From Streptantibioticus cattleyicolor NRRL 8057 = DSM 46488 (GTDB taxonomy: Bacteria > Actinomycetota > Actinomycetes > Streptomycetales > Streptomycetaceae), in contig NC_017585.1 in NCBI RefSeq assembly GCF_000240165.1, positions 1,488,001 to 1,552,000 on the forward strand: 64,000 nt of DNA, in the 5' to 3' direction. The notes under the pieces were generated by a model, which saw only the letters and a program-made list of their open reading frames with translations, did no database searches and had not been told where the DNA came from. This document shows positions 10 through 63,680 of this stretch, one piece after another (the stretch's first letter is position 1; every line of letters starts with the position of its first letter). Both the position numbers and the translations under genes were made by a program.

Positions 10-17817
<17,808 letters not shown>

Positions 17818-49009: not shown

Positions 49010-50218
49010 TCACCCGCTCACCGCCGACGCCCGCTGCGCGCGGGCCGTGGTTCGGACGTGGGCGACGGCGGGGGAGGTGGCGAAGGCGGCGCCGAGCCCG
49101 GCGAGCCAGTCGGCTTCGGCGTCGAGGGGGTGGTGCGGTTCGTGGGGGGCCGGGGTGTCGGTACCGCGGGCGGTGGGGAGGGCGCCGACGGCGGCGCGTT
49201 CGAGGGCGCCGACCAGGGAGGCGGCCTCGGCGACGACCGAGGCGTGCTCCTCGGGCGGGGGGAAGCGGCGGGTCGCTTCGGCGAGCCAGTCGGGGGTGCG
49301 CGGGTCCGCGTAGTGCCGGAGGATCATCCGGGCGTCCTGGATCTCGATGACCCGCCGGTAGAGCGCGAAGTGCACATGGGACGGCCAGAGGTGTCCGCCC
49401 GGCCGGACCAGCGTGATCTCCGGCAGCACGGCGTGCAGTTCGGCCCACAGCGGGGTGAGCGCCCGATAGCGGCGACGCGCCCGGAGCCAGCCGCGCACCG
49501 TGCTGGAGACCGGTGTCCACAGCGTCGTGCTCGCCCCGGCCGCGATCAGCCCGACGCACAACGCCCCGAGCACCGCCGACAACGTGTCGTCCCCGCCGTC
49601 CTGCGCGCTGGTCGTCGCCGCCCGGATCATGTCGTCGACCGTCCAGGCGTTCCACACCAGACCGGCCAGCGTCCCGAGGACGAACAACCGCAGCGCGGTA
49701 CGCAGCAGCCCCGGCCCGGCCAGGCGGGCACGACGGGCCAGCGGGCGGACCAGCGCCGACAGGCAGTAACCGAGGTACAGCGTGATGGTCGCGTCGTAGG
49801 CGACGAGGTACCAGCGGTGCGACGGGCTGGAGACCAGATCGCTGCCGGCCAGGTGCGGCGCGGCGAGGAACTGGAACCCGAGCGAGGTCAGCAACGCCCC
49901 CGCCGCCAGGGCGAGTTCGCGGCGGACGGCACGTCGTGGCGGCTCGGCGGTGCGCAGCGCCAGGGCGAGCAGCCGGAACGCGCAGGCCGCGCTCACGTAC
50001 AGTGCGGCGCCCATCAGCACCGGCAGCGGGACGAGCCCCGCGCGCGAGGCGGTGGCGACGGTCAGCGGATCGAGCACGATCAGTTTGGCGCCCAGCGCCG
50101 CCGCCGCGACGGAGCCGTACCGGGTGGCCGCCGACAGGCCCTCCCAGCGGGCCCGGAGCAGGTGGCAGGCGCTCAGCAGGAAGACCGCGGCGATGAGGTA
50201 GAGGACGGTGTCAGTCAC
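49010..50218 (-). CDS. MAB_1171c family putative transporter
   Basis: A 402-residue membrane protein: about six hydrophobic helices in the N-terminal 230 residues (VLYLIAAVFLLSACHLLRA, LYVSAACAFRLLALALR, LALAAGALLTSLGFQFL and others), then a cytosolic helical domain (TPLWAELHAVLPEITL, YRRVIEIQDARMILRHY). This is the profile of the MAB_1171c proteins that accompany XRE and ImmA genes in Streptomyces; transport is presumed, not shown. GTG overlaps the end of the ImmA gene by 8 bases. Confidence 0.8.
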   Translation of the reverse strand: MTDTVLYLIAAVFLLSACHLLRARWEGLSAATRYGSVAAAALGAKLIVLDPLTVATASRAGLVPLPVLMGAALYVSAACAFRLLALALRTAEPPRRAVRRELALAAGALLTSLGFQFLAAPHLAGSDLVSSPSHRWYLVAYDATITLYLGYCLSALVRPLARRARLAGPGLLRTALRLFVLGTLAGLVWNAWTVDDMIRAATTSAQDGGDDTLSAVLGALCVGLIAAGASTTLWTPVSSTVRGWLRARRRYRALTPLWAELHAVLPEITLVRPGGHLWPSHVHFALYRRVIEIQDARMILRHYADPRTPDWLAEATRRFPPPEEHASVVAEAASLVGALERAAVGALPTARGTDTPAPHEPHHPLDAEADWLAGLGAAFATSPAVAHVRTTARAQRASAVSG

Positions 50219-50738
50219 GGTCGTCCTGGTCCGGCGGCGGAGCGAAGAAGACATCGATGCTCAACGGGCGCGCGGGGCGTGGTGACGTGGTGCCGGCTCG
50301 CGCCACCCGGCTCATGATCAGCGAGGCCAGCAGTTCGGCCTCCCGCTCCTGCGGCTCGTCGTAGCCGGTGCGGCCGAGTACCCGTCGTACCAGGTCGGTG
50401 GGCAGGTGCGGGAGGATGGCCTGGGAGGCGACCGGGGTCAGCGGCGCGGAGCCCGCGTGGTCGAAGAGCAGGTGGGCGGCCTCGTGGACGAGGATGTGTT
50501 CGCGGTGCAGCGGGGTGGTGTCGGCGGCGTAGAGGACGTAGTCGGCGCCGCCGGTGGACAGCAGCAGGCCGCAGGGGAGGTGGGGGCGGGAGGCCACCGG
50601 CACCAGCTCGATGTCCCGGCCGCGTTGGCGGCCGATGCGGGCCAGTAACTCCCCGGCGTCGAACGGCTCCGGCAGTTCGAGCCGTTCCGCCATCCGTCTA
50701 CATCGCCGTACCGTGGCCTGGTAGCCGTCTCGACGCAC
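50211..50738 (-). CDS. ImmA/IrrE family metallo-endopeptidase
   Basis: A 175-residue protein with the zinc motif HEAAH (EHILVHEAAHLLFDH) and a downstream Glu-containing helix (EREAELLASLIM) that supplies the third ligand. In ImmA/IrrE proteins this domain cleaves a partner repressor on stress or mobile-element signals. It lies between an XRE-type regulator (36 bases upstream) and a membrane protein (overlapping), suggesting it cleaves or controls the XRE protein. GTG start. Confidence 0.88.
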   Translation of the reverse strand: MRRDGYQATVRRCRRMAERLELPEPFDAGELLARIGRQRGRDIELVPVASRPHLPCGLLLSTGGADYVLYAADTTPLHREHILVHEAAHLLFDHAGSAPLTPVASQAILPHLPTDLVRRVLGRTGYDEPQEREAELLASLIMSRVARAGTTSPRPARPLSIDVFFAPPPDQDDRD

Positions 50739-50774: not shown

Positions 50775-51227
50775 TCAGGACGACGCCGGCCTGGTGGCGC
50801 GGGCCGCGTCGCGGCGTGCGATCACGTCGATCAGCTCGCTCACCGTGTCCAGCCCCTCGGGCGAGAGGTTGACGGCTCGCAGGGCCAGGCTGCGTACCCC
50901 GGCGTCACGCAGCGCGCCGAGCAGCGCCAGCTCCCTGGCGATCTCCGCGCCCTCCTGCTCGTCGAAGAAGTACGCGGGCGGGACCTGGAAGAACTGCGCG
51001 AGCGCTTCCAGATGGCGCTTGGTGGGGTTGTCGCGGCGACCGGTGCGCAGCTGCCACAGGTACGTCGTGGAGAAGGACTCGCCCGTCGCCGCACGGCAGG
51101 CGGTGGCCACCTCCTCGTTGCTGTACTGCTCACGGTCGGGCCGGCGCACCGTCTGGAACAGCGCCTCGATCTTGGCGGCGAGCCCGGCCGGCTCGGCCGG
51201 CTCGCCCTTGCGGGCCGACTCCACCAC
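50775..51227 (-). CDS. XRE family helix-turn-helix regulator
   Basis: A 150-residue regulator. The HTH covers about residues 35-85: YSNEEVATACRAATGESFST, TYLWQLRTGRRDNPTKRHLE, ALAQFFQVPPAYFFD. The C-terminal helices (ELALLGALRDAGVRSLALRA) resemble the extension found in EspR-like and BldB-neighbour regulators. GGGAGGT is just upstream of the paired GTG codons. First gene of the XRE-ImmA-MAB_1171c operon. Confidence 0.88.
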   Translation of the reverse strand: MVESARKGEPAEPAGLAAKIEALFQTVRRPDREQYSNEEVATACRAATGESFSTTYLWQLRTGRRDNPTKRHLEALAQFFQVPPAYFFDEQEGAEIARELALLGALRDAGVRSLALRAVNLSPEGLDTVSELIDVIARRDAARATRPASS

Positions 51228-51405: not shown

Positions 51406-51972
51406 TCACAGGTTGGGGTTGATGGGGGTGCTGCTGTCGGAGTGGTGCCAGTCGAACTGCTCCAGGAGGCCGGCGGATCCGGTGTGGCTCACGGTCATGA
51501 GGTGGTACGAGCCCCGCGGGCCGTTCATGCCGGTGGAGTGGAGGCAGGCGCCGGCGGCGTTGCACACGCTGCGGTTGCTGTCGAACGTCCACCGCTGGTG
51601 CGCGTCGCCGGCGTTGCACGGCTCGGCGATGACGTCCGGGCCGTCGGACGGTCCGCTGGCGACGTGGCCCCACAGGCACTGGCCGTCGTTGGTGCTGTGG
51701 ATCAGGCCGCTCTGGTCGACGAACCAGAACTGGTTCCAGGAGCCGTCGCACGGCTTGAGCACGACCGGTCGGCCGTGGCCGTTGATCTGCCGGTACTCGT
51801 CCATGCAGAAGTAGGTCCCGTTGTTGGACGGCGGCTTGTAGAGGGCGGCGAGGAAGCCGTAGGCGTAGGGCTGGGGGTTGATCGGGTCCGCCTGGGCGGG
51901 CGCGGAGCACAGGGGGAGCCCCAGGCCGACCGCGATCGCCAGGGCCGAGAGCGTCTTCCGTATGCGCCTCAT
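51406..51972 (-). CDS. Secreted ricin-type lectin-like protein
   Basis: A 188-residue secreted protein. The signal peptide (MRRIRKTLSALAIAVGLGLP, then SAPAQA) precedes a single beta-trefoil-like domain with QxW-type repeats: WNQFWFVDQSG, QCLWG, HQRWTFD, and cysteine pairs around each. It probably binds carbohydrate outside the cell; no catalytic domain is attached. The second of two ATG codons is preferred because GAAGGGA is correctly spaced from it. Not obviously linked to neighbours. Confidence 0.75.
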   Translation of the reverse strand: MRRIRKTLSALAIAVGLGLPLCSAPAQADPINPQPYAYGFLAALYKPPSNNGTYFCMDEYRQINGHGRPVVLKPCDGSWNQFWFVDQSGLIHSTNDGQCLWGHVASGPSDGPDVIAEPCNAGDAHQRWTFDSNRSVCNAAGACLHSTGMNGPRGSYHLMTVSHTGSAGLLEQFDWHHSDSSTPINPNL

Positions 51973-52195
51973 GGTCATGTCCCTTCTGCCGGTGGTCAGT
52001 TGGCGAAGCGTGCGCGGTCATGCTGGCGAAGGCGGCGGTGGCGGCGGGAGGATTCCGAACGATCCCGAACGGCGGCGCGTGAGCTGGCGTGGACGAGGAT
52101 GGTTGTTGCATTCATCTGGGTTGACGATCGTCGTCCGGGTCACGACACTACGAGCTGACACTGATGTTCCGGTCGCGGTGGCGAAGGGGTGGGGT

Positions 52196-52591
52196 GTGGT
52201 CACGTCACAGGTGACTGCGGTGGTGTCGTGCGCGTGCCGGGCGGACGAACCCCGTTCCGCCGCGGTGTCGCGACTCGACGGCGCCCGCACCCTCGACGTG
52301 GTGGCCGAGTGCCTGGCCCTGCTGAGGCAGGAGGCCGGCAACCCCTCGTACACCACGATCGCCCGACGCGTCAGCGCGGCCCGGGCCGCCCGGGGTGTGC
52401 CGGCGGAGGAGCGCACCCCGGGCCGGGTCACCGTCTACGACTGCTTCCGGGCGGGACGGCGCCGCATGGACGTCGAGCTGTTGTCGGACATCGTGCGGGC
52501 GTTGGGTGCGGACCCGACGCCGTGGCGCCGTGCCCACAGCGTGGCGTCCGGCTCCGCCCGGCCGCTGCCGGCGGTGGCGCGGCGCCGGTGA
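52196..52591 (+). CDS. Helix-turn-helix protein, possible regulator of the RiPP locus
   Basis: About 131 residues. The middle reads like an N-terminal HTH of Streptomyces XRE-type regulators: LDVVAECLALLRQEAGNPSY, TTIARRVSAARAARG, then VTVYDCFRAGRRRMDVELLS and DIVRALGADPTPWRRAH. GTG follows AAGGGG by about 7 bases. It is transcribed in the same direction as the RiPP genes and ends 213 bases before the precursor, so it may regulate them; this link is inference. Confidence 0.6.
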   Translation: MVTSQVTAVVSCACRADEPRSAAVSRLDGARTLDVVAECLALLRQEAGNPSYTTIARRVSAARAARGVPAEERTPGRVTVYDCFRAGRRRMDVELLSDIVRALGADPTPWRRAHSVASGSARPLPAVARRR

Positions 52592-52670
52592 GGCGACACC
52601 CGTGTGACCTCTTCCGACGTCCCTGATCAAACGGGCTGCCGGTGCCCTGGAACAGCGCGTGGCACAACCG

Positions 52671-52699
52671 TTGACACCACGTCAGCCCTGCGACATGCT
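52671..52699 (+). promoter_or_regulatory. Promoter of the RiPP operon
   Basis: TTGACA (52671-52676), 17 bases, CATGCT (52694-52699). A perfect -35 and a fair -10 box, about 105 bases before the precursor ATG. It is the only strong promoter-like element between the HTH gene and the precursor. Confidence 0.6.
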
Positions 52700-52804
52700 G
52701 ACGCCCACGCCAGCTCAGATGAATCGCTCGAAGGATTCCATCCAACTGAGTTGTCCGTGAGATCGCGTGCTCGTCTTCTCCAGTCACCGAGAGGAGGGAT
52801 CACC

Positions 52805-52915
52805 ATGGTCAGTTCCTGGATCAAGCCGGACATCACCTCGGCCGAGCCCCAGATGCTTCCGCCCGCCTGCAGTTGTGGCTGCGGCAGCGGCGGGGGAGGG
52901 GGCGCCGGTAGCTGA
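52805..52915 (+). CDS. RiPP precursor peptide (Cys-Ser-Cys-Gly-Cys / poly-Gly core)
   Basis: A 36-residue peptide with a very good ribosome site (GAGGAGGGATCACC before ATG). The N-terminal part MVSSWIKPDITSAEPQMLPP looks like a leader; the rest is C22-S-C24-G-C26-G-S followed by Gly29-33 and Ala-Gly-Ser. Three alternating cysteines in a Gly-rich tail, directly before a radical SAM/SPASM enzyme and a PqqD-like protein, make it the likely substrate for thioether or other carbon-centred crosslinking. I know no named family with this core. No dedicated leader protease is in the cluster. Confidence 0.82.
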   Translation: MVSSWIKPDITSAEPQMLPPACSCGCGSGGGGGAGS

Positions 52916-52969
52916 ACGCCGCCGCCCCGGCCACGGGTGCCCGCCCGGGGTCGTGGGCCGGGTTCCACG

Positions 52970-53007
52970 GTGCCGGGCGGGCGGGACCGTTCCCGTCCGC
53001 CCGGCAC
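52970..53007 (+). terminator. Strong stem-loop between precursor and maturase genes
   Basis: 52970-52986 pairs with 52991-53007: a 17-base-pair GC-rich stem (one G-T pair) with a 4-base loop, without a long T run. It sits between precursor and maturase, where RiPP operons often have partial terminators or processing sites that leave much more precursor than enzyme mRNA. It could also protect the 3' end of the short transcript. Confidence 0.7.
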
Positions 53008-53037
53008 CGGCCTTCTCCCACTCACTGAAGGTGGTCC

Positions 53038-54444
53038 ATGAAGCTGTTGGAGCAGTGGTCCGACCTGCTGGCCCCCGAGGACCTGGTCTACTTCACCTAC
53101 GGCGAACGCCGGCTGGTCGCCAACCCCGAGGTGTCCTCCTGGTGCGAACTCACGGTCGCCGAGACCGCGGTGCTGCGCGACCTCGTACGGGGCACCGGCC
53201 CGGTGGGCGAAGACCTCGCGCTGGAACGCACCCTGGCGAAACTCGTCCTCAACTGGCTGGTCTACCTGCCCGGTCGGCGTCCCGTCATGCGTGAACCCGA
53301 CCCGCCGCTCAAACTCGTCTACTACGCCATCACCGACGGCTGCAACCTGCGCTGCCCGTACTGCTACGCCTCCTCCGAGAAGGCACTGCCGGGCGAGCTG
53401 ACGCACGAGGAATCGCTCGGCCTCGTCGACCAGGTGGCCGCGATGAAGGCGAAGACCATCATCTTCACCGGCGGCGAACCGATGATGCGACGCGACCTGC
53501 TGACGGTGGCCGCGCACGCCCGCGACCTCGGCCTCACCGTCAACATGATCACCAACGGGACACTCATCCGCACCCCCGAGACGGCCCGCCGCATCGCCGA
53601 CATCTTCGACCTGGTCACCGTCAGCATCGACGGCGGCACCGCCGAACTCCACGAGAGGACCCGCGGCCGAGGCACCTTCGCCAAGACCGCCCGGGGGCTG
53701 CGCCTGCTCAACGAGGCCGGCGTCGTCCCCGTCATCAACCACGTGCTCACCCCGGACAGCGCCAACGCCCTCACCGAACTGTGCGAGTTCACCTCCGGCT
53801 ACCGGATCCGCACGGTGCGGCTGATGTACCACTCCGAACTCGGCCGGGCGAAGACCGACGACTACGACTTCGGCTGGCGCGACTACCAGAAGGCCCAGCA
53901 GTTCTACTGGACCAACCCCGCGGCGGCCACACTGCTGCCGGACGGCCCACGGCCGGAGAAGCCCTGCGTCGTCAAAGGCAACTGCGGGATGGGCGGCAAC
54001 GAGATCTACGTCAACTCCCTCGGCACCGTCTACCCGTGCAAACTCGTCACCGAACCCGCCCACCGCGCGGGCAACATCCGGCACAAACCCCTCACCGAGA
54101 TCTTCGCCGACCCCGCGCTCGCCGACATGCGCGGCAACAACGTGTTCAGCGGCGACAACCTCCAGGACTGCCGCCGCTGCTACATCCGGGGCGGCTGCGG
54201 CGGCGGCTGCCGCGCCTACCACATGGCCGAAAGCGGCGACATCCACCGCAACGGACGCCACCTGTGCCGGATCCTGCGCCACCAGATGGTCTCCAACTAC
54301 TGGCGGTCCCTCGGCGTCACCGGCCCCGAACTCAGCGCCCACCAGGACGAACTGTGCACTCCGCGCCTGGTCCGGGACGACAGCGTCCACCCCGTCCACG
54401 AAGACTGGCGCACCCAAGGACGCACCCTGCTGCCCCTCGTATGA
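53038..54444 (+). CDS. Radical SAM/SPASM peptide maturase
   Basis: A 468-residue radical SAM enzyme. An N-terminal segment of about 95 residues precedes the core and is likely substrate-binding. The SAM cluster motif is C102-x3-C106-x2-C109 (CNLRCPYCYA), followed by FTGGEPMMR. The C-terminal SPASM domain has the full seven-cysteine pattern: C316-x12-G-x4-C334, then C378-x2-C381-x5-C387-x3-C391 and C410, enough for two auxiliary 4Fe-4S clusters. Such enzymes install thioether or C-C bonds in peptides (sactipeptides, ranthipeptides, mycofactocin, PQQ). The preceding 36-residue Cys-rich peptide is the probable substrate. Confidence 0.93.
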   Translation: MKLLEQWSDLLAPEDLVYFTYGERRLVANPEVSSWCELTVAETAVLRDLVRGTGPVGEDLALERTLAKLVLNWLVYLPGRRPVMREPDPPLKLVYYAITDGCNLRCPYCYASSEKALPGELTHEESLGLVDQVAAMKAKTIIFTGGEPMMRRDLLTVAAHARDLGLTVNMITNGTLIRTPETARRIADIFDLVTVSIDGGTAELHERTRGRGTFAKTARGLRLLNEAGVVPVINHVLTPDSANALTELCEFTSGYRIRTVRLMYHSELGRAKTDDYDFGWRDYQKAQQFYWTNPAAATLLPDGPRPEKPCVVKGNCGMGGNEIYVNSLGTVYPCKLVTEPAHRAGNIRHKPLTEIFADPALADMRGNNVFSGDNLQDCRRCYIRGGCGGGCRAYHMAESGDIHRNGRHLCRILRHQMVSNYWRSLGVTGPELSAHQDELCTPRLVRDDSVHPVHEDWRTQGRTLLPLV

Positions 54445-54491
54445 CCCACGCGCCGGCCGTTCCCGACGACCTCCGTGAAGAAAGAGGCACC

Positions 54492-54818
54492 ATGCGGTAC
54501 GGGATCAGCGACAACGTCATCTGGACCCCGGGCGTCGACGAGGTCCGCCTCTACGACTGCGACACCCAGGAATTCCAGACCATGAACAGCACGGCTGCCG
54601 AGATCTGGACCCTCGTCGCGGACGGCCGGGAAGTGGACGACGTGGTCGCCACCATGGTCGACCGCCACACCGACGGCAGCCCCGAACAGGCCCGCCTCGT
54701 CGGCTCGGACGTCCGTGACTTCGTGCTCGACCTCGCCCGACGCGGCCTGCTGACCGACCACACCCCGACCCCACCGGCCCGGCCCGCCGCGACACCGCCG
54801 GAGAAGACGCTGACCTGA
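54492..54818 (+). CDS. PqqD-like RiPP recognition protein (RRE)
   Basis: A 108-residue protein with the PqqD fold pattern: strands NVIWTPGVDEVRLYDCDTQE and FQTMNSTAAEIWTLVADG, then helices DVVATMVDRHTDGSPEQARL and VRDFVLDLARRGLL, plus a Pro-rich tail. PqqD-type proteins bind the leader peptide and present it to the radical SAM enzyme. An in-frame ATG at 54441 overlaps the maturase stop (ATGA) and is also possible; the internal ATG has GAAGAAAGAGG upstream. Acts with the maturase on the precursor. Confidence 0.88.
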   Translation: MRYGISDNVIWTPGVDEVRLYDCDTQEFQTMNSTAAEIWTLVADGREVDDVVATMVDRHTDGSPEQARLVGSDVRDFVLDLARRGLLTDHTPTPPARPAATPPEKTLT

Positions 54819-54831
54819 AAGGGGAACCACC

Positions 54832-55776
54832 ATCGACGGCACACCGGCGATCGAGGCGGCAGACCTCGTCAAACGCTACGCCGGCATGGACGCCAACGCG
54901 GTCGACCACCTCTCCTTCACCATCGCCACCGGCTCGGTGGTCGGCCTGCTCGGGCCCAACGGAGCGGGCAAGTCCACCCTGACCAAACTCGTCTGCGGCA
55001 TCACCACCCCGGACGCCGGACACGTCAGGATCTTCGGCCGGGGGTTCCACGAGGCGGACGGCGCCGCCAAGGCCCAGATCGGCGTCGTCCACCAGTCCGC
55101 CACGTTCGACATGATGCTTCCGGTCCTGGACAACCTGCGGATCGCCGCCGCCTTCAAACGGCTGCGCTGGAAGGCGGTCGAACGCCACGTCCTCGCCATG
55201 CTGGAGGAGTTCGGCATCGAAAAACCCCTCACCCAGCTGGTCTTCACCCTCTCCGGCGGCGAGATGCGACGCCTGCAACTCGTCCGCGCCCTGATGGGCG
55301 GCCCGCGCCTGCTGCTCCTCGACGAACCGTCCGCCGGACTCGACGTCTCCGGCCGCCGCCGGCTGTGGCAGCACATCGAGCGGATGCGCCGCGACCACGC
55401 GGCCACCGTGTTGTGGACCAGCCACTACGTGGAGGAGCTGGAACGCAACTGCGGCCGGATCCTCATCCTCGACCACGGCCGCCTCGTCCGGTCCGGAACG
55501 CCCCGCCAGCTCGCCGACGACTTCGGCCGGCCCACCGCGCTCGTCCGCCCCGCCGCGGCGAGCGACCTCGGCGGCCTCGCGGCGGCGCTGGTCGAGCCCG
55601 GCCTGACCACCACCGTCGACGCGCGGAGCGTGCACGTCGCCGGCACCGGAGTCCGCGAACGCCTCCCCAAGCTGCTCGACCAGGCGCGACGGGCCGGCAT
55701 CCAGGTGTCCTCAGTCGAATACCGGGCGGCCTCGCTGGAGGACGCCTTCATGGAACTGGTGGGAGACAGCGCATGA
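54832..55776 (+). CDS. ABC transporter ATP-binding protein, apparently with an ATC start
   Basis: A 314-residue ATPase: Walker A GPNGAGKST at residues 41-49, Q-loop in IGVVHQSATFD, signature LSGGEMRRLQL and Walker B LLLLDEPSAG. The N-terminal strand IEAADLVKRYAG, found in essentially all such proteins, is encoded in frame only from ATC at 54832, with AAAGGGG seven bases before it. No ATG, GTG or TTG lies between the in-frame stop at 54811 and ATG at 54886, and starting at 54886 would remove that strand. So either ATC is a genuine rare start or an ATG has been lost. Exporter ATPase for the modified peptide. Confidence 0.85.
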   Translation: MDGTPAIEAADLVKRYAGMDANAVDHLSFTIATGSVVGLLGPNGAGKSTLTKLVCGITTPDAGHVRIFGRGFHEADGAAKAQIGVVHQSATFDMMLPVLDNLRIAAAFKRLRWKAVERHVLAMLEEFGIEKPLTQLVFTLSGGEMRRLQLVRALMGGPRLLLLDEPSAGLDVSGRRRLWQHIERMRRDHAATVLWTSHYVEELERNCGRILILDHGRLVRSGTPRQLADDFGRPTALVRPAAASDLGGLAAALVEPGLTTTVDARSVHVAGTGVRERLPKLLDQARRAGIQVSSVEYRAASLEDAFMELVGDSA

Positions 55777-56588
55777 GCACCGGATTCTCCTGGACCGACG
55801 CCGCCCTCCCGGCCCGCCGCTTCCCGCCGCCGGACCTGGTCGCCACCCTGCACCGCGAATACCGCCTGCTCACCCGCAACCGCACCAACCTCCTGCTGGC
55901 CGTCATCCCCAGCGCCGTCTACCTGCTGCTCTTCGCCACCTCCCTCTCCCACCTGGTGGGTACGGTCTCCTACGCCCACCGCGCCGTCGGCTACCCGGAG
56001 TTCTCGGTGCCCGCCGTCCTGATCTCCTCGATGCTGGCCGCCGCCACCACCGCGGGCACCTCCCTGTTCCAGGAACGCATGGGACGCATGGACGTCGAGC
56101 TGTGGTCCTACCGCCTGCGCCGCGGCAGTTATGTCGCCGGCAAGCTGATCGCCGGCACCGCCCTGGTGCTCCTGCAGAGCCTCGCCGCGCTCGCGGTCGC
56201 CGAGGCCGTCTTCGGCCTGGGCTGGCCCGCGACGCACTGGCTGGCCCTGCTGTGCGCGATCGTCGTCACCTCGGTGGCGTTCAACGGCCTCTACCTGCTG
56301 CTGGCCAGCCGGTTCAGCGACTTCCAGCGGTTCACCGTCACCATCAACATCCTCGCCCCGGTGCTCCTCTTCGCCAGCCCGTCGTTCTACCCGGCCGCCC
56401 TGATGTCGCCGCCGCTGCGCTGGCTGTCGTGGGCCGACCCGGTCACCTACGGCATCCGCTGCCTGCGTGACGCGGCGCTGCTCGGCTTCGCCGGCGCCTG
56501 GCCCTGGCTGCTCGGGCTGACCGCCGTCTCGGTCGCCACCTGCCTCCTCATCGGCCGGTCCCTGCTCGCCCGGGCCGCCGAGGTGTGA
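55773..56588 (+). CDS. ABC transporter permease (ABC-2 type)
   Basis: A 271-residue permease with about six membrane helices (NLLLAVIPSAVYLLLFATSL, GTALVLLQSLAALAVAEAVF, LLCAIVVTSVAFNGLYLLLA, NILAPVLLFASPSFYP, LLGLTAVSVATCLLIGRSLL). It has the ABC-2 layout typical of drug and peptide exporters such as DrrB. Its ATG overlaps the ATPase stop (ATGA), so the two are co-translated. With the ATPase it most likely exports or gives immunity to the RiPP product. Confidence 0.9.
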   Translation: MSTGFSWTDAALPARRFPPPDLVATLHREYRLLTRNRTNLLLAVIPSAVYLLLFATSLSHLVGTVSYAHRAVGYPEFSVPAVLISSMLAAATTAGTSLFQERMGRMDVELWSYRLRRGSYVAGKLIAGTALVLLQSLAALAVAEAVFGLGWPATHWLALLCAIVVTSVAFNGLYLLLASRFSDFQRFTVTINILAPVLLFASPSFYPAALMSPPLRWLSWADPVTYGIRCLRDAALLGFAGAWPWLLGLTAVSVATCLLIGRSLLARAAEV

Positions 56589-59764: not shown

Positions 59765-59836
59765 TCAGACGACGCGATGCGTGCCGGGTGCCCCAGGTGC
59801 GACGGAATGGGAGCCGGGACTGGTGCAGGGACTCAT
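59765..59836 (-). CDS. Small ORF of 23 codons with strong ribosome site
   Basis: GAGGAGGTG followed by six bases and ATG. The product begins MSPCTSPGSHSVAPG and is rich in Ser, Pro, Gly and one Cys. The stop is 51 bases before the 66-residue small protein gene, so it may be a leader peptide or half of a two-peptide unit. Too short for homology reasoning. Confidence 0.4.
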   Translation of the reverse strand: MSPCTSPGSHSVAPGAPGTHRVV

Positions 59837-60098
59837 CCCGTTCACCTCCTCGCACGCTCGGCGAACACATCCGGACGGGGGCGTGACGTGCCCCTCGGTC
59901 CAGGTTACGACTGCCGGCGACGGGACGGTACGCCGGAGCCACCCCGCCGTGCCGTGCGGGCACTCGTCACCCTCCGTGACCGGCGTTCGGCGCCGGTGAC
60001 GACCGGCCGGGGGAACCCCGTGAACGGCGTCGTCCGCACGTCACCCGTTCGCCCGCCCCACCGGTACCGGCCGGGCCCGGCGGGGCACAAGGGAAGGC

Positions 60099-60194
60099 AT
60101 GACTCGGTACGGGCCCCGCACGGGACGGTGGCGTCCGGTGCGCCGGACGCCCCGGCGCCGCGCGCCGCGCCGTTCCGCGCCGGGGGAGCGGTGA
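60099..60194 (+). CDS. Arg-rich 31-residue ORF overlapping the crtI start
   Basis: ATG after AAGGGAAGGC encodes a very basic peptide (MTRYGPRTGRWRPVRRTPRR at its start; more than a third Arg) that ends in TGA overlapping the GTG of crtI (GTGA). The GTG has its Shine-Dalgarno-like GGGGGAG only two bases away, too near for normal initiation, so crtI translation may depend on termination of this ORF. Could also be chance in GC-rich DNA. Confidence 0.4.
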   Translation: MTRYGPRTGRWRPVRRTPRRRAPRRSAPGER

Positions 60195-61750
60195 CCGGGC
60201 CGCGCACGGTGGCGGGGCCCACCGGGGACGTGGTGGTGGTCGGCGCCGGTCTCGCCGGGCTGGCGGCGGCGCTCCACCTGCTGGGCGCCGGGCGCCGGGT
60301 GACCGTGGTGGAACGGGCCGCCGGACCGGGCGGCTGCGCCGGACGGGTGGAACGCGGCGGATACCACATCGACACCGGCCCGACCGTTCTGACCATGCCG
60401 CACCTGCTGGACGAGGCGTTCGCCGCGGTCGGCGACGCGTTGTCCGCCCGGCTGGAACTGACCGAACTCCACCCCGCCTACCGCGCGCGCTTCGCCGACG
60501 GCGGCGTCCTCGACGTGCACACCCGCGCCGACGCGATGGAGGACGCGGTCCGTGACTTCGCCGGGCCGCGCGACGCCGCCGGGTACCGGGAGCTGCGGCG
60601 CTGGCTCGAACGCCTCCACCGGGTGCAGATGGGCCGCTTCATCGACCGCAACTTCGACTCCCCGGCGCAGTTGCTCCACCCCGATCTGGCGCGGCTGGCG
60701 GCGCTGGGCGGGTTCGGCCGGCTGGAGGCCCGGATCGCGCGGTTCGTCGGCGACGAGCGGCTGCGCCGGGTCTTCTCCTTCCAGGCGCTCTACGCCGGGG
60801 TGCCGCCGGCCCGGGCGCTGGCCGCGTACGCCGTGATCGCCTACATGGACACCGTGGCCGGGGTGTACTTCCCGCGTGGCGGCATGCACGCGGTGCCCCG
60901 CGCGCTGGCCGACGCCGCCCGCGACCACGGCGCCGAACTGCGCTACCGCGAGCGGGTGACACGCCTGGAGTGGCGGGCCGGCCGGGTGACCGCCGTCGTC
61001 ACCGACCACGACCGCGTTCCGTGCGACGCGGTGGTGCTCGCCTGCGAACCGGCCGCCGCCTACGCGTTGCTGGGACGCGCCCCACGGCGTCCGCTGCCGC
61101 TGCGCCACTCACCGTCCGCCGTCGTGCTGCACGCCGGCACCGACCGGACGTGGCCCGAACTGGCCCACCACACCCTCTCCTTCGGCGCCGCCTGGCACCG
61201 CACCTTCGAGGAACTGACCCGCACTGGCACCGTGATGAGCGACCCGTCGCTGCTGGTGACCCGGCCCACCACGCACGACCCCGCTCTCGCACCATCCGGC
61301 CGCCATCTGCACTACATCCTGGCGCCCTGTCCCAACACCGCCGTCGGCCCGGGACCGGCCGCGTGGCACACGCTGGCGCCGCGCTACCGCGACGGTCTGA
61401 TCCGCGAACTGGAACGCCGGGGGCTGTCCGGACTCGGCGCCGCGATCGAGGAGGAGGTCATGGTCACCCCGGCCGACTGGACGGCGCTCGGACACCGCGC
61501 CGGAACGCCGTTCTCACTCGCCCACACCTTCCCCCAGACCGGTCCGTTCCGCCCCGCCAACCTCGTCCGCGGCGCCGACAACGTCGTGCTGGCCGGCAGC
61601 GGCACCACACCCGGGGTCGGCGTGCCCATGGTGCTGATCTCCGGCAAGCTCGCCGCCGAACGCATCACGGGACGACGCGTCACCACGGCACGCCGCCGGG
61701 CCGTGACCACCACGCCACCGGCACCGTCCCCCCAGGACGCGGTGCGATGA
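60191..61750 (+). CDS. crtI: Phytoene desaturase
   Basis: A 519-residue FAD-dependent desaturase of the CrtI family. [20 protein letters not shown] binds [23 protein letters not shown] is the family follow-on motif, and [20 protein letters not shown] is the C-terminal CrtI signature. It converts phytoene toward lycopene by repeated desaturation. The longer upstream frame has no coding character, so GTG at 60191 is used. The stop overlaps the crtB start (ATGA), and crtB overlaps the Rieske gene, so the three form a tight operon. No crtE is visible upstream. Confidence 0.92.
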
Positions 61751-62697
61751 GCGACCGGGAACTCGACGCGGCGGGCATCCACGACCCCCGACTGCGCGCG
61801 GCCTACCGACGGTGCCGTGCCCTCAACGCGGCGCACGGCAGGACCTACTTCCTCGCCACCCGGCTGCTGCCACCCGCCCGCCGCCCCGCGGTCCACGCGC
61901 TGTACGGCTTCGCCCGCTGGGCCGACGACATCGTGGACGGCCCCTCCCCGGCGGCCGGCCACCCACACCGGGCCACCCGGCTGACCGCACTCGCCGCCCA
62001 CCTCGCCGACGGCCTGCGCACCGGCCACAGCGACCAGCCGGTGGTCCGCGCCCTGGCCCACACCGCGGCCAACTACCGCATCGACCACCGCCACTTCCTG
62101 GACTTCATGGCCGCCATGCGGGCCGACCTGCGCGTCACCGGCTACGCCACCTTCCGGGAACTGCGCGGCTACATGCACGGTTCGGCCGCCGTCATCGGCC
62201 TCCAGATGCTGCCGGTGCTCGGCCACGTGGTCCCCCGCGACCAGGCCGAGCCGCACGCCGCCGCGCTGGGCGTCGCCTTCCAACTCACCAACTTCCTGCG
62301 GGACGTCGGCGAAGACCTCGACCGCGGCCGGGTGTACCTCCCCGCCGACCTGCTCGCCGCGCACGGCGTGGACCGCGAACGGCTGGCGTGGAGCCGGACC
62401 ACCGGACGCGCCGACCACCGGATCACCGCCGCGCTGGCCGACTTCGCCGCCCTCACCCGCGCCCACTACCGGCTCGCCCTCCCCGGCATCGCCATGCTCG
62501 ACCCCGTCGCCCGGCCCTGCATCCGCGCCGCCTGCGTGCTCTACGGTGGCATCGTCACCGCCGTCGAACGGGAGGGCTACCCGGTGCTCCAACGCCGTTG
62601 CGCCGTACCGCGCCGGGTCCGCGCCGCCGTCGCGGTGGACGGGCTCGGCCGGGTCGCCGCCGCCCGGGCCGCCTGCCGGAAACGGGGCCCGCGGTGA
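61747..62697 (+). CDS. crtB: Phytoene synthase
   Basis: A 316-residue head-to-head prenyl synthase. The first Asp-rich motif is in [10 protein letters not shown] and the second in [37 protein letters not shown] and the [14 protein letters not shown] segment are also typical. It joins two geranylgeranyl diphosphates to phytoene, the first committed carotenoid step. It overlaps crtI at its start and the Rieske gene at its end by four bases each, so expression is coupled. Confidence 0.94.
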
Positions 62698-63680
62698 CCG
62701 GACGCCGCCCGTCCCGCCCCCGCGTGCCGCTGACCGTACGGCGGCGTGCCGTGCCGTGGGAGCGCACGCGGCCCACCTGGCGGGAGGCCGACCCCGCGCT
62801 GATCGCCGAGGCGCTCGCCCGCGCCGAGGCACGCCCCACGGGCAACTGGTTCGTGCTCGCCGCCTCCCAACGCGTCACCGCCCGGCGCCCGTTGGGCCGT
62901 ACGGTGGCGGGCGTCGAGGTGGTGGCGTGGCGGGACGGCGACGGCCGGATCGCCGCCGGACCAGGTGCCTGCCCGCATCTGGGGGCGCCGCTGAAGGACG
63001 CGCGGATCTGCCACGGCACCCTGGTCTGCCACTGGCACGGGCTGGCGCTGGACGGCACCGCCCGCCCGGGATGGTCGCCGTACCCCGCCCACGACGACGG
63101 CGTGCTGGTGTGGGTACGGCTGGACCGGGCCGGCGGCGAGCCCCCGCTGGACCGCCCCGTGCTCCCGCCCCGTCCGGCCGCCGGCACCGCGCTGACCGCC
63201 GTGTACGACACCACCGGCACCTGCGAACCCCGGGACGTCGTCGCCAACCGCCTCGATCCGTGGCACGGCGCGTGGTTCCACCCGCACACCTTCGTCGATC
63301 TCACGGTCACCGAGGCGGGGCCGGAACGCGTCGTGGCCCAGGTGTCGTTCAAGGTGGCGGGACGCCTGGTGGTGCCGGTGCGGGCGGAGTTCACGGCGCC
63401 CGGGCCGCGTACCGTCGTGATGCGCGTCGCCGACGGGGAGGGGCGCGGCTCCGTGGTGGAGACGCATGCCACGCCGCTGGGCCGGGACGCGTCCGGGCGG
63501 CCCCGCACGGCGGTCGTGGAGGCGGTGGTCGCGGTCTCCGAGCGGCCCGGGTTCGCCGCGGTGCGCTCCGTGGCGCCGCTGGTGCGCCCGCTGGTACGGG
63601 CGGCGGCGGGCCGGTTGTGGCGGGACGACCTGGCGTACGCGGAACGCCGTTGGGCGCTGCGTGGTGGGGGGCGCGGCTGA
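62694..63680 (+). CDS. Rieske [2Fe-2S] protein of the carotenoid operon (DUF5914 type)
   Basis: A 328-residue protein. Residues 45-145 are a Rieske domain with both cluster motifs intact, ACPHLGAPL and VCHWHGL, two Cys and two His ligands. The C-terminal part ([20 protein letters not shown], then beta-rich strands) resembles Rieske oxygenase catalytic domains and the DUF5914 proteins that follow crtB in Streptomyces. A carotenoid-oxidising or electron-transfer role fits the context but is unproven. GTG overlaps the crtB stop. No standard reductase is nearby. Confidence 0.82.

Follow-up and report, generated by a model that had tools for sequence, protein, structure and literature searches.

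What does a short cysteine- and glycine-rich peptide become when it is encoded just upstream of a radical S-adenosylmethionine (SAM) enzyme, and does it belong to a known class of natural products? This question is raised by a five-gene set on megaplasmid pSCAT (1,812,548 bases) of Streptantibioticus cattleyicolor NRRL 8057, which lies in the stretch of 64,000 nucleotides analysed here (the window; NC_017585.1, positions 1,488,001 to 1,552,000) and whose 4,393 locus bases are 100% identical to that replicon. The tightly packed genes encode, in this order, the peptide, a radical SAM/SPASM enzyme, a PqqD-like protein, the ATPase of an ATP-binding cassette (ABC) transporter and an ABC-2 permease. 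An earlier note made from the sequence alone had described a 36-residue peptide with cysteines at positions 22, 24 and 26, a SPASM enzyme with ten cluster cysteines, a PqqD-like recognition protein and a two-gene exporter in tight order, and all of these elements were recovered (Table 1). In all likelihood the locus belongs, as a divergent member, to the StsA/StsB/StsC sactipeptides, a known family described in 2023, and very probably yields a small thioether-stapled peptide.

Family assignment of the pSCAT locus

The maturase scores 738 bits on the NCBIfam model of the StsB sactipeptide maturase (NF045574; cut-off 625) and covers profile positions 1–464 of 466; three relatives tested reach 746, 897 and 804 bits. 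The match bears out the view that this is a locus for a ribosomally synthesized and post-translationally modified peptide (RiPP) of the radical SAM type, probably a sactipeptide. Among the best 25 of 89 matches the enzyme stays far below the cut-offs of heme b synthase (140.8 of 500 bits), TIGR04053 (129.9 of 395), mycofactocin (119.5 of 265), GeoRSP (101 of 400) and PqqE (83.2 of 381), and thus falls outside the mycofactocin, pyrroloquinoline quinone and GeoRSP systems. Both Pfam modules are matched (PF04055, 98.5 bits; PF13186, 40.6 bits), and the ten cluster cysteines (C102, C106 and C109; C316, C334, C378, C381, C387, C391 and C410) are invariant in 21 aligned homologues including the window's, as is an eleventh cysteine, C310. 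In a tree of 56 rows, the outgroup of which (L002) is too distant for safe rooting, the 16 maturases accompanied by three-cysteine peptides, the window's among them, form one side of a 100/100 branch. The enzyme is 70% identical over its whole length to the homologue of Streptomyces sparsogenes (locus L010), where the gene order is the same.

Among solved structures, that of the sactisynthase SkfB scores highest by sequence. The AlphaFold model of the maturase (mean predicted local distance difference test 80.4; below 50 at residues 101–105, 107–115, 268–275, 301–317 and 460–468) suggests a fold shared with anaerobic sulfatase maturases, SkfB, TigE, SuiB and PqqE. As modelled, the chain opens with a beta-beta-beta-alpha-alpha arrangement, and 467 columns could be aligned with TigE (8vpo, TMq 0.67). 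An N-terminal domain resembling a RiPP recognition element (RRE) found no support in a profile comparison with PqqD-type proteins (probability 0.2%).

The peptide carries the WxxP motif, a CxCxC core and three X-Gly units. Only W5, P8, C22, C24, C26, G31, G33 and G35 are invariant in 16 aligned three-cysteine peptides, an alignment that requires a one-residue gap in one of the sequences (L123a); the eight residues may be read as a recognition motif, three donors and three evenly spaced glycines. A profile of the 16 peptides, the window's included, finds the locus at E 3.2e-12, and nothing better than E 0.85 in the rest of the 8.1-Mb genome. We file the locus as a divergent member of the StsA/StsB/StsC family because of the maturase clade, the synteny and the invariant residues, to which the discrete PqqD-type RRE may be added as a shared trait.

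StsB of Streptomyces sparsogenes, as described by Precord and co-workers in 2023, reportedly resembles the mycofactocin enzyme MftC in full-length sequence and is said to form sactionine links, on the basis of mass spectrometry, mutagenesis and chemical degradation. The S. sparsogenes peptide at locus L010 matches, in our own reading, all eight named StsA residues (K-18, P-17, W-15, V-14, K-13, P-12, E-11 and M-10). According to PMC12710340, where the system is credited to Precord et al. 2023, StsC is the discrete RRE of an Actinomycetota sactipeptide and binds WxxP of StsA. The earlier note had considered the locus unlike the families it knew. This view had to be abandoned, as a wholly new family is ruled out by the StsB match together with this StsA/StsC pair, and NCBIfam models exist for the StsB maturase (NF045574), the three-cysteine StsA peptide (NF045558) and a related two-cysteine peptide (NF045559). 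The accessible parts of PMC6511847, PMC9062424, PMC11002830 and PMC9484694 do not mention the StsA/StsB family. The earlier note had held that the maturase might refute its reading by clustering with known RiPP enzymes that act on a different substrate; the enzyme does cluster with a known family, but the substrate there is of the same kind.

Relatives and the two groups of precursors

A contig scan found 85 relatives, of which 79 loci were kept, 41 (L009–L049) with at least 52% and 38 with at most 39% identity. The maturase gene is rare in the sampled genomes: with its own genome counted, it occurs in 5 of 100 sampled relatives at E 1e-60, and at E 1e-120 in 9 of the 394 genomes sampled from the family and in 5 of the 394 sampled from the class, and the StsB cut-off is passed in a single one of 396 genomes of the phylum sample, namely the window's own. 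Mining for co-conserved peptides, as the earlier note had proposed, recovered a CxCxC or CxC peptide near the maturase in all 46 loci scanned (L001 and L005–L049), with patterns that required W..P, C..C and a Gly-rich tail; CxCxC alone already recovered 13 three-cysteine peptides. As such a peptide is present at every one of the 46 loci, the pairing of peptide and maturase is more than chance. The other observation by which the earlier note would have been refuted, a peptide frame that is not kept beside maturase homologues, was thus not made.

The precursors fall into two groups. The three-cysteine group comprises 18 peptides of 36–45 residues, one to three per locus, selected by CxCxC alone (13 peptides) or by WxxP and two cysteines (5), never by glycine. 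The two-cysteine group comprises 36 peptides with 29 distinct cores, and its leaders are long (peptides of about 85–93 residues where the true start was located). It corresponds to the StsA-related NF045559 peptides with the aroma-sacti domain (NF045560), which share with the window locus an StsB-family maturase, a stand-alone PqqD protein, WxxP and C-x-C followed by X-Gly units; they differ in their length, in having two core cysteines and, at most loci, in the YcaO, TfuA, P450 and FAD genes alongside. WxxP is present in all 47 entries compared, in part as a result of the search patterns. Since the two-cysteine set was selected by patterns containing W, P, C-x-C and WSG, its WxxP and its glycine at +5 are largely so by construction.

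Within flanks of about 10 kb, shorter at some loci, YcaO is encoded in 28 of 33 two-cysteine loci, TfuA in 29, an enzyme dependent on flavin adenine dinucleotide (FAD) in all 33, a P450 in 28, an O-methyltransferase in 23 and a prolyl oligopeptidase in 8, whereas the nine three-cysteine loci contain none of them apart from one P450. The aroma-sacti traits, i.e. long leader, two core cysteines and YcaO-TfuA neighbours, are absent from the window locus.

The groups also differ in their tails. None of the 18 three-cysteine peptides has fewer than three X-Gly units (those of L123a being shifted in register), while the minimum in the 29 two-cysteine cores is two, the number at which 11 of them end; a third unit is thus present in 18 of 18 against 18 of 29 (Fisher p 0.003). 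Mapped onto the 51 of 55 maturase rows of the tree with a scored peptide (L124–L127 had none), the third unit is kept across the three-cysteine clade, although this clade makes up 5.28 of the 11.24 substitutions per site of the whole tree; the two-cysteine rows require three or more changes. As the tree provides one independent pair, this difference is not independent evidence and proves nothing alone. The sister groups, three-cysteine loci without and two-cysteine loci mostly with YcaO-TfuA, nevertheless offer a natural comparison of how ring number changes within one maturase family.

Several loci encode more than one precursor (three in L016, two each in L007, L123 and L048), every core sequence being distinct. 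The Streptomyces two-cysteine loci L024, L031, L034 and L038 have no YcaO within the flanks examined, and in L024 the PqqD gene is followed by FAD and peptidase-like frames, an arrangement shared with L026, which does carry YcaO. An alphaproteobacterial two-cysteine cluster with StsB, PqqD, FAD enzyme, YcaO and TfuA was found in Celeribacter persicus (L047, 9384–15608); it lies close to transposase-like open reading frames (recognized by eye) and looks like a transfer between phyla.

Proposed ring topology and competing products

By analogy with StsC, the PqqD-type protein would bind the W5–P8 leader motif and present the 36-residue precursor to the radical SAM enzyme. The latter would generate a 5'-deoxyadenosyl radical, remove an alpha-carbon hydrogen in the Gly-rich tail and link this carbon to the sulfur of a cysteine. 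Three such links, with a total loss of 6 Da, would be formed before the leader is cut off by some protease and the product is exported by the ABC pair, probably as a narrow-spectrum antibiotic or a signal.

On the evidence of conservation, the best topology appears to be a hairpin ladder of nested S-C-alpha rings. X-Gly conservation fits nested pairing, in which the innermost cysteine would be paired with the first X-Gly unit and the others would follow outward; this would give C26–G31, C24–G33 and C22–G35 or, with acceptors one residue earlier, links to G30, G32 and A34; sequence is compatible with both the glycines at +5, +7 and +9 and each preceding residue as acceptors. Donors at i, i+2 and i+4 would thus face equally spaced acceptors across a short turn, like the rungs of a beta-hairpin. 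Nested rings or glycine alpha-carbon links had already been suggested in the earlier note, and the glycine columns make them the best-supported reading. Fourteen tails share three all-Gly columns within nine positions after the last cysteine, while 100,000 within-sequence shuffles gave no such column in 99,937 cases and one in 63; these are 14 of the 18 peptides, the near-copies L009, L044 and L120 and the shifted L123a having been left out. In the same 14 peptides, G31 is encoded by GGC (9), GGA (2), GGG (2) and GGT (1), and G35 by GGC (12) and GGT (2). The eight invariant residues suggest a specific, testable ring map. Classical sactipeptides such as thurincin H likewise form a nested hairpin of S-C-alpha links, but their donor cysteines are more widely spaced, whereas those of the window follow each other at strict i+2 spacing.

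More generally, it is conceivable, at somewhat less than even chances, that StsB-type enzymes zip i+2 donors and acceptors into nested rungs on one hairpin face and that the X-Gly requirement tracks the number of cysteines, i.e. three cysteines with three units here and two cysteines with at least two units in the sister group. The window peptide would then be the barest example, with rungs ending only on glycine or alanine. Independently of this idea, the family assignment places an apparent oddity within a small group of sactipeptides, where it can be tested.

Several observations weigh against the assignment to StsA/StsB/StsC or against the ladder. The window peptide scores 24 bits on the StsA model NF045558, below the cut-off of 42, which is a threshold for automatic naming; 9 of 13 three-cysteine peptides exceed it, and four do not, namely the window's, the two of genome G049 (a, 41.4 bits; b, 36.5 bits) and that of Phytomonospora, unlisted at E 0.001. 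Curated naming cut-offs hence miss some precursors. K-18 and P-17 of StsA, which aid StsC binding, are absent from the window peptide, which reads VSSW up to the tryptophan of the motif, so that the extended KPxWxxP recognition sequence is not found; PMC12710340 describes the KP positions ahead of WxxP as poorly conserved. Further differences from the described system are the 70% identity of the maturase and a tail that is almost pure glycine and ends one residue past the last conserved glycine. With regard to the ladder, the glycines of L123a are shifted by one residue, and the codon of G33 is GGC in 14 of 14 peptides, which may therefore reflect likeness at the DNA level. Finally, a ring map of StsA may be contained in Precord et al. 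2023 and could settle or contradict the topology.

Among the other products to be weighed, a sactipeptide with separate, unnested four-residue rings, each cysteine being linked to the residue three positions on, appears unlikely. The precedent is streptosactin of Streptococcus thermophilus (GggA/GggB), likewise a short Gly-rich and SPASM-made sactipeptide with a glycine acceptor, in which Cys25–Ser28 and Cys31–Gly34 are joined according to PMC8172795. Compared by description, its two separated Cys-x-x-acceptor units differ from the core spacing in the window, and its cluster includes its own protease and Rgg/SHP control. The i+3 acceptors would here be G25, G27 and G29, positions at which relatives also have D, E, R, N, S, A, H, V, Q, L and F, while three other columns are invariant glycine. 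This is not decisive against unnested rings, and the column argument is weakened by other sactipeptides with variable acceptors.

A ranthipeptide, with thioethers to a beta or gamma carbon, is very improbable. PMC8120280 reports in-silico clusters resembling the two-cysteine kind, with a stand-alone PqqD, from Sphaerisporangium, Microbispora and Herbidospora, for which antiSMASH gave the label ranthipeptide. However, glycine lacks a beta carbon, the candidate columns contain glycine, alanine, serine and once glutamine, and the enzyme exceeds the StsB cut-off; its 86 bits on the PapB ranthipeptide model (cut-off 340) are a weak contrary sign.

We consider it equally improbable that the closely spaced thiols serve a metal- or redox-active peptide instead of a secreted antibiotic or signal. 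CxCxC could bind a metal, and PqqD-linked SPASM enzymes also produce cofactors, but an exporter pair is present, the maturase belongs to the StsB clade and the FAD enzyme of the two-cysteine loci is encoded in none of the nine three-cysteine loci, other oxidoreductases not having been searched for. Additional thioamidation by YcaO-TfuA, as proposed for the two-cysteine relatives, most of which carry YcaO and TfuA genes, is scarcely conceivable here, as these genes are missing from the three-cysteine flanks examined; the genome has two YcaO matches, the closer of them about 92 kb off, beside a different radical SAM gene.

Gene features, intergenic hairpin and neighbourhood

Table 1. Features of the sactipeptide locus and of the neighbouring divergent genes (window coordinates)
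Feature	Position	Strand	Basis or remark
DUF6545 protein	49010–50254	-	family match
HExxH-motif open reading frame	50211–50738	-	motif; no family match
XRE-like regulator	50775–51227	-	HTH_31, 19.6 of 27 bits
Purine-rich, ribosome-binding-site-like sequence ahead of peptide gene	52790–52799	+	sequence inspection
StsA-like precursor peptide gene, 36 residues	52805–52915	+	similar peptides adjoin StsB homologues; NF045558 below cut-off
WxxP recognition motif of leader, W5-I-K-P8	52817–52828	+	W5 and P8 invariant across the 16-peptide alignment; StsC binding known for homologue
Proposed core, residues 21–36, ACSCGCGSGGGGGAGS	52865–52912	+	analogy with StsA numbering; predicted boundary
Donor cysteines C22, C24 and C26	52868–52882	+	invariant in alignment
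Invariant glycines G31, G33 and G35	52895–52909	+	candidate acceptors, or acceptors' neighbours
Hairpin with 19-nt arms (95% complementary) and a 4-nt loop	52968–53009	+	peptide-maturase gap; possible attenuator or mRNA-stability element
StsB-family radical SAM/SPASM maturase, 468 residues	53038–54444	+	NF045574, cluster cysteines, tree
PqqD-type discrete RRE (StsC-like), 108 residues	54492–54818	+	PF05402, 43.4 bits; homologue in 46 of 46 loci searched
ABC exporter ATPase	54832–55776	+	PF00005, DrrA-like; start uncertain, ATC 54832 or ATG 54886
ABC-2 type exporter permease	55773–56588	+	PF01061; overlaps ATPase stop codon

The gap between the peptide and maturase genes folds with z -4.25 and contains a hairpin which may favour the output of peptide over that of enzyme. 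Of the 16 three-cysteine loci, ten were folded, the window's included; nine gave z -2.3 to -4.3 and one (L016) z -0.9. The gap sequences of L009, L010 and L044 are alike, as are parts of those of L012 and L121, with no further pair at E 1e-3. The fact that most gaps fold while few resemble each other speaks for a hairpin that was retained as its sequence changed, although intergenic hairpins are common in GC-rich actinomycetes.

The frame of the ATPase is devoid of ATG, GTG or TTG from the upstream stop at 54811 to ATG 54886. In the longer translation, the alignment with homologues sets in at about residue 7, and an AAAGGGG stretch precedes ATC 54832, which is possibly used as a rare start.

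The earlier note had stated that no leader protease is encoded nearby. This holds insofar as no peptidase family matched in the flanking window genes scanned, but the HExxH-motif frame, which by its motif we take to be ImmA/IrrE-like, lies on the opposite strand. Homologues of the XRE-like, HExxH and DUF6545 proteins occupy the same divergent position at locus L013 (78, 49 and 34% identity), and the regulator also precedes stsB by about 0.6 kb in G519, which is closely related to L013; in the remaining three-cysteine genomes searched it is located elsewhere, represented only by weaker matches or absent. By our own count, a copy of at least 67% identity is present in 28 of 100 other genomes of the family sample, commonly without stsB, and the trio may therefore be a regulator/processing module gained by two lineages or a coincidence. 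Loci L009, L010 and L044 share two further nearby gene groups, a Mut7-C RNase and a BrkB-like membrane protein, neither of them a peptidase.

The earlier note had let the locus begin at 52196. The five-gene set within its range is real, whereas the first open reading frame (52196–52588, 131 residues) lies outside the conserved set; it has a sub-threshold helix-turn-helix match (13.9 of 27 bits) and no homologue at the other loci searched. A ricin-B-type lectin-domain protein is encoded between the XRE-like and the peptide genes (51406–51978, minus strand), and carotenoid-type genes for a desaturase-like amine oxidoreductase, a phytoene/squalene synthase and a Rieske/DUF5914 protein follow at 59777–63680. 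The same replicon carries a second radical SAM RiPP-like locus (L134, G000:C1:1628000-1645000, 5912–13494), which consists of an 868-residue frame with a YcaO match and, by eye, a TfuA-like start, a small open reading frame, a 517-residue radical SAM protein 31% identical to the window's and a 596-residue protein that appears cupin-like by eye.

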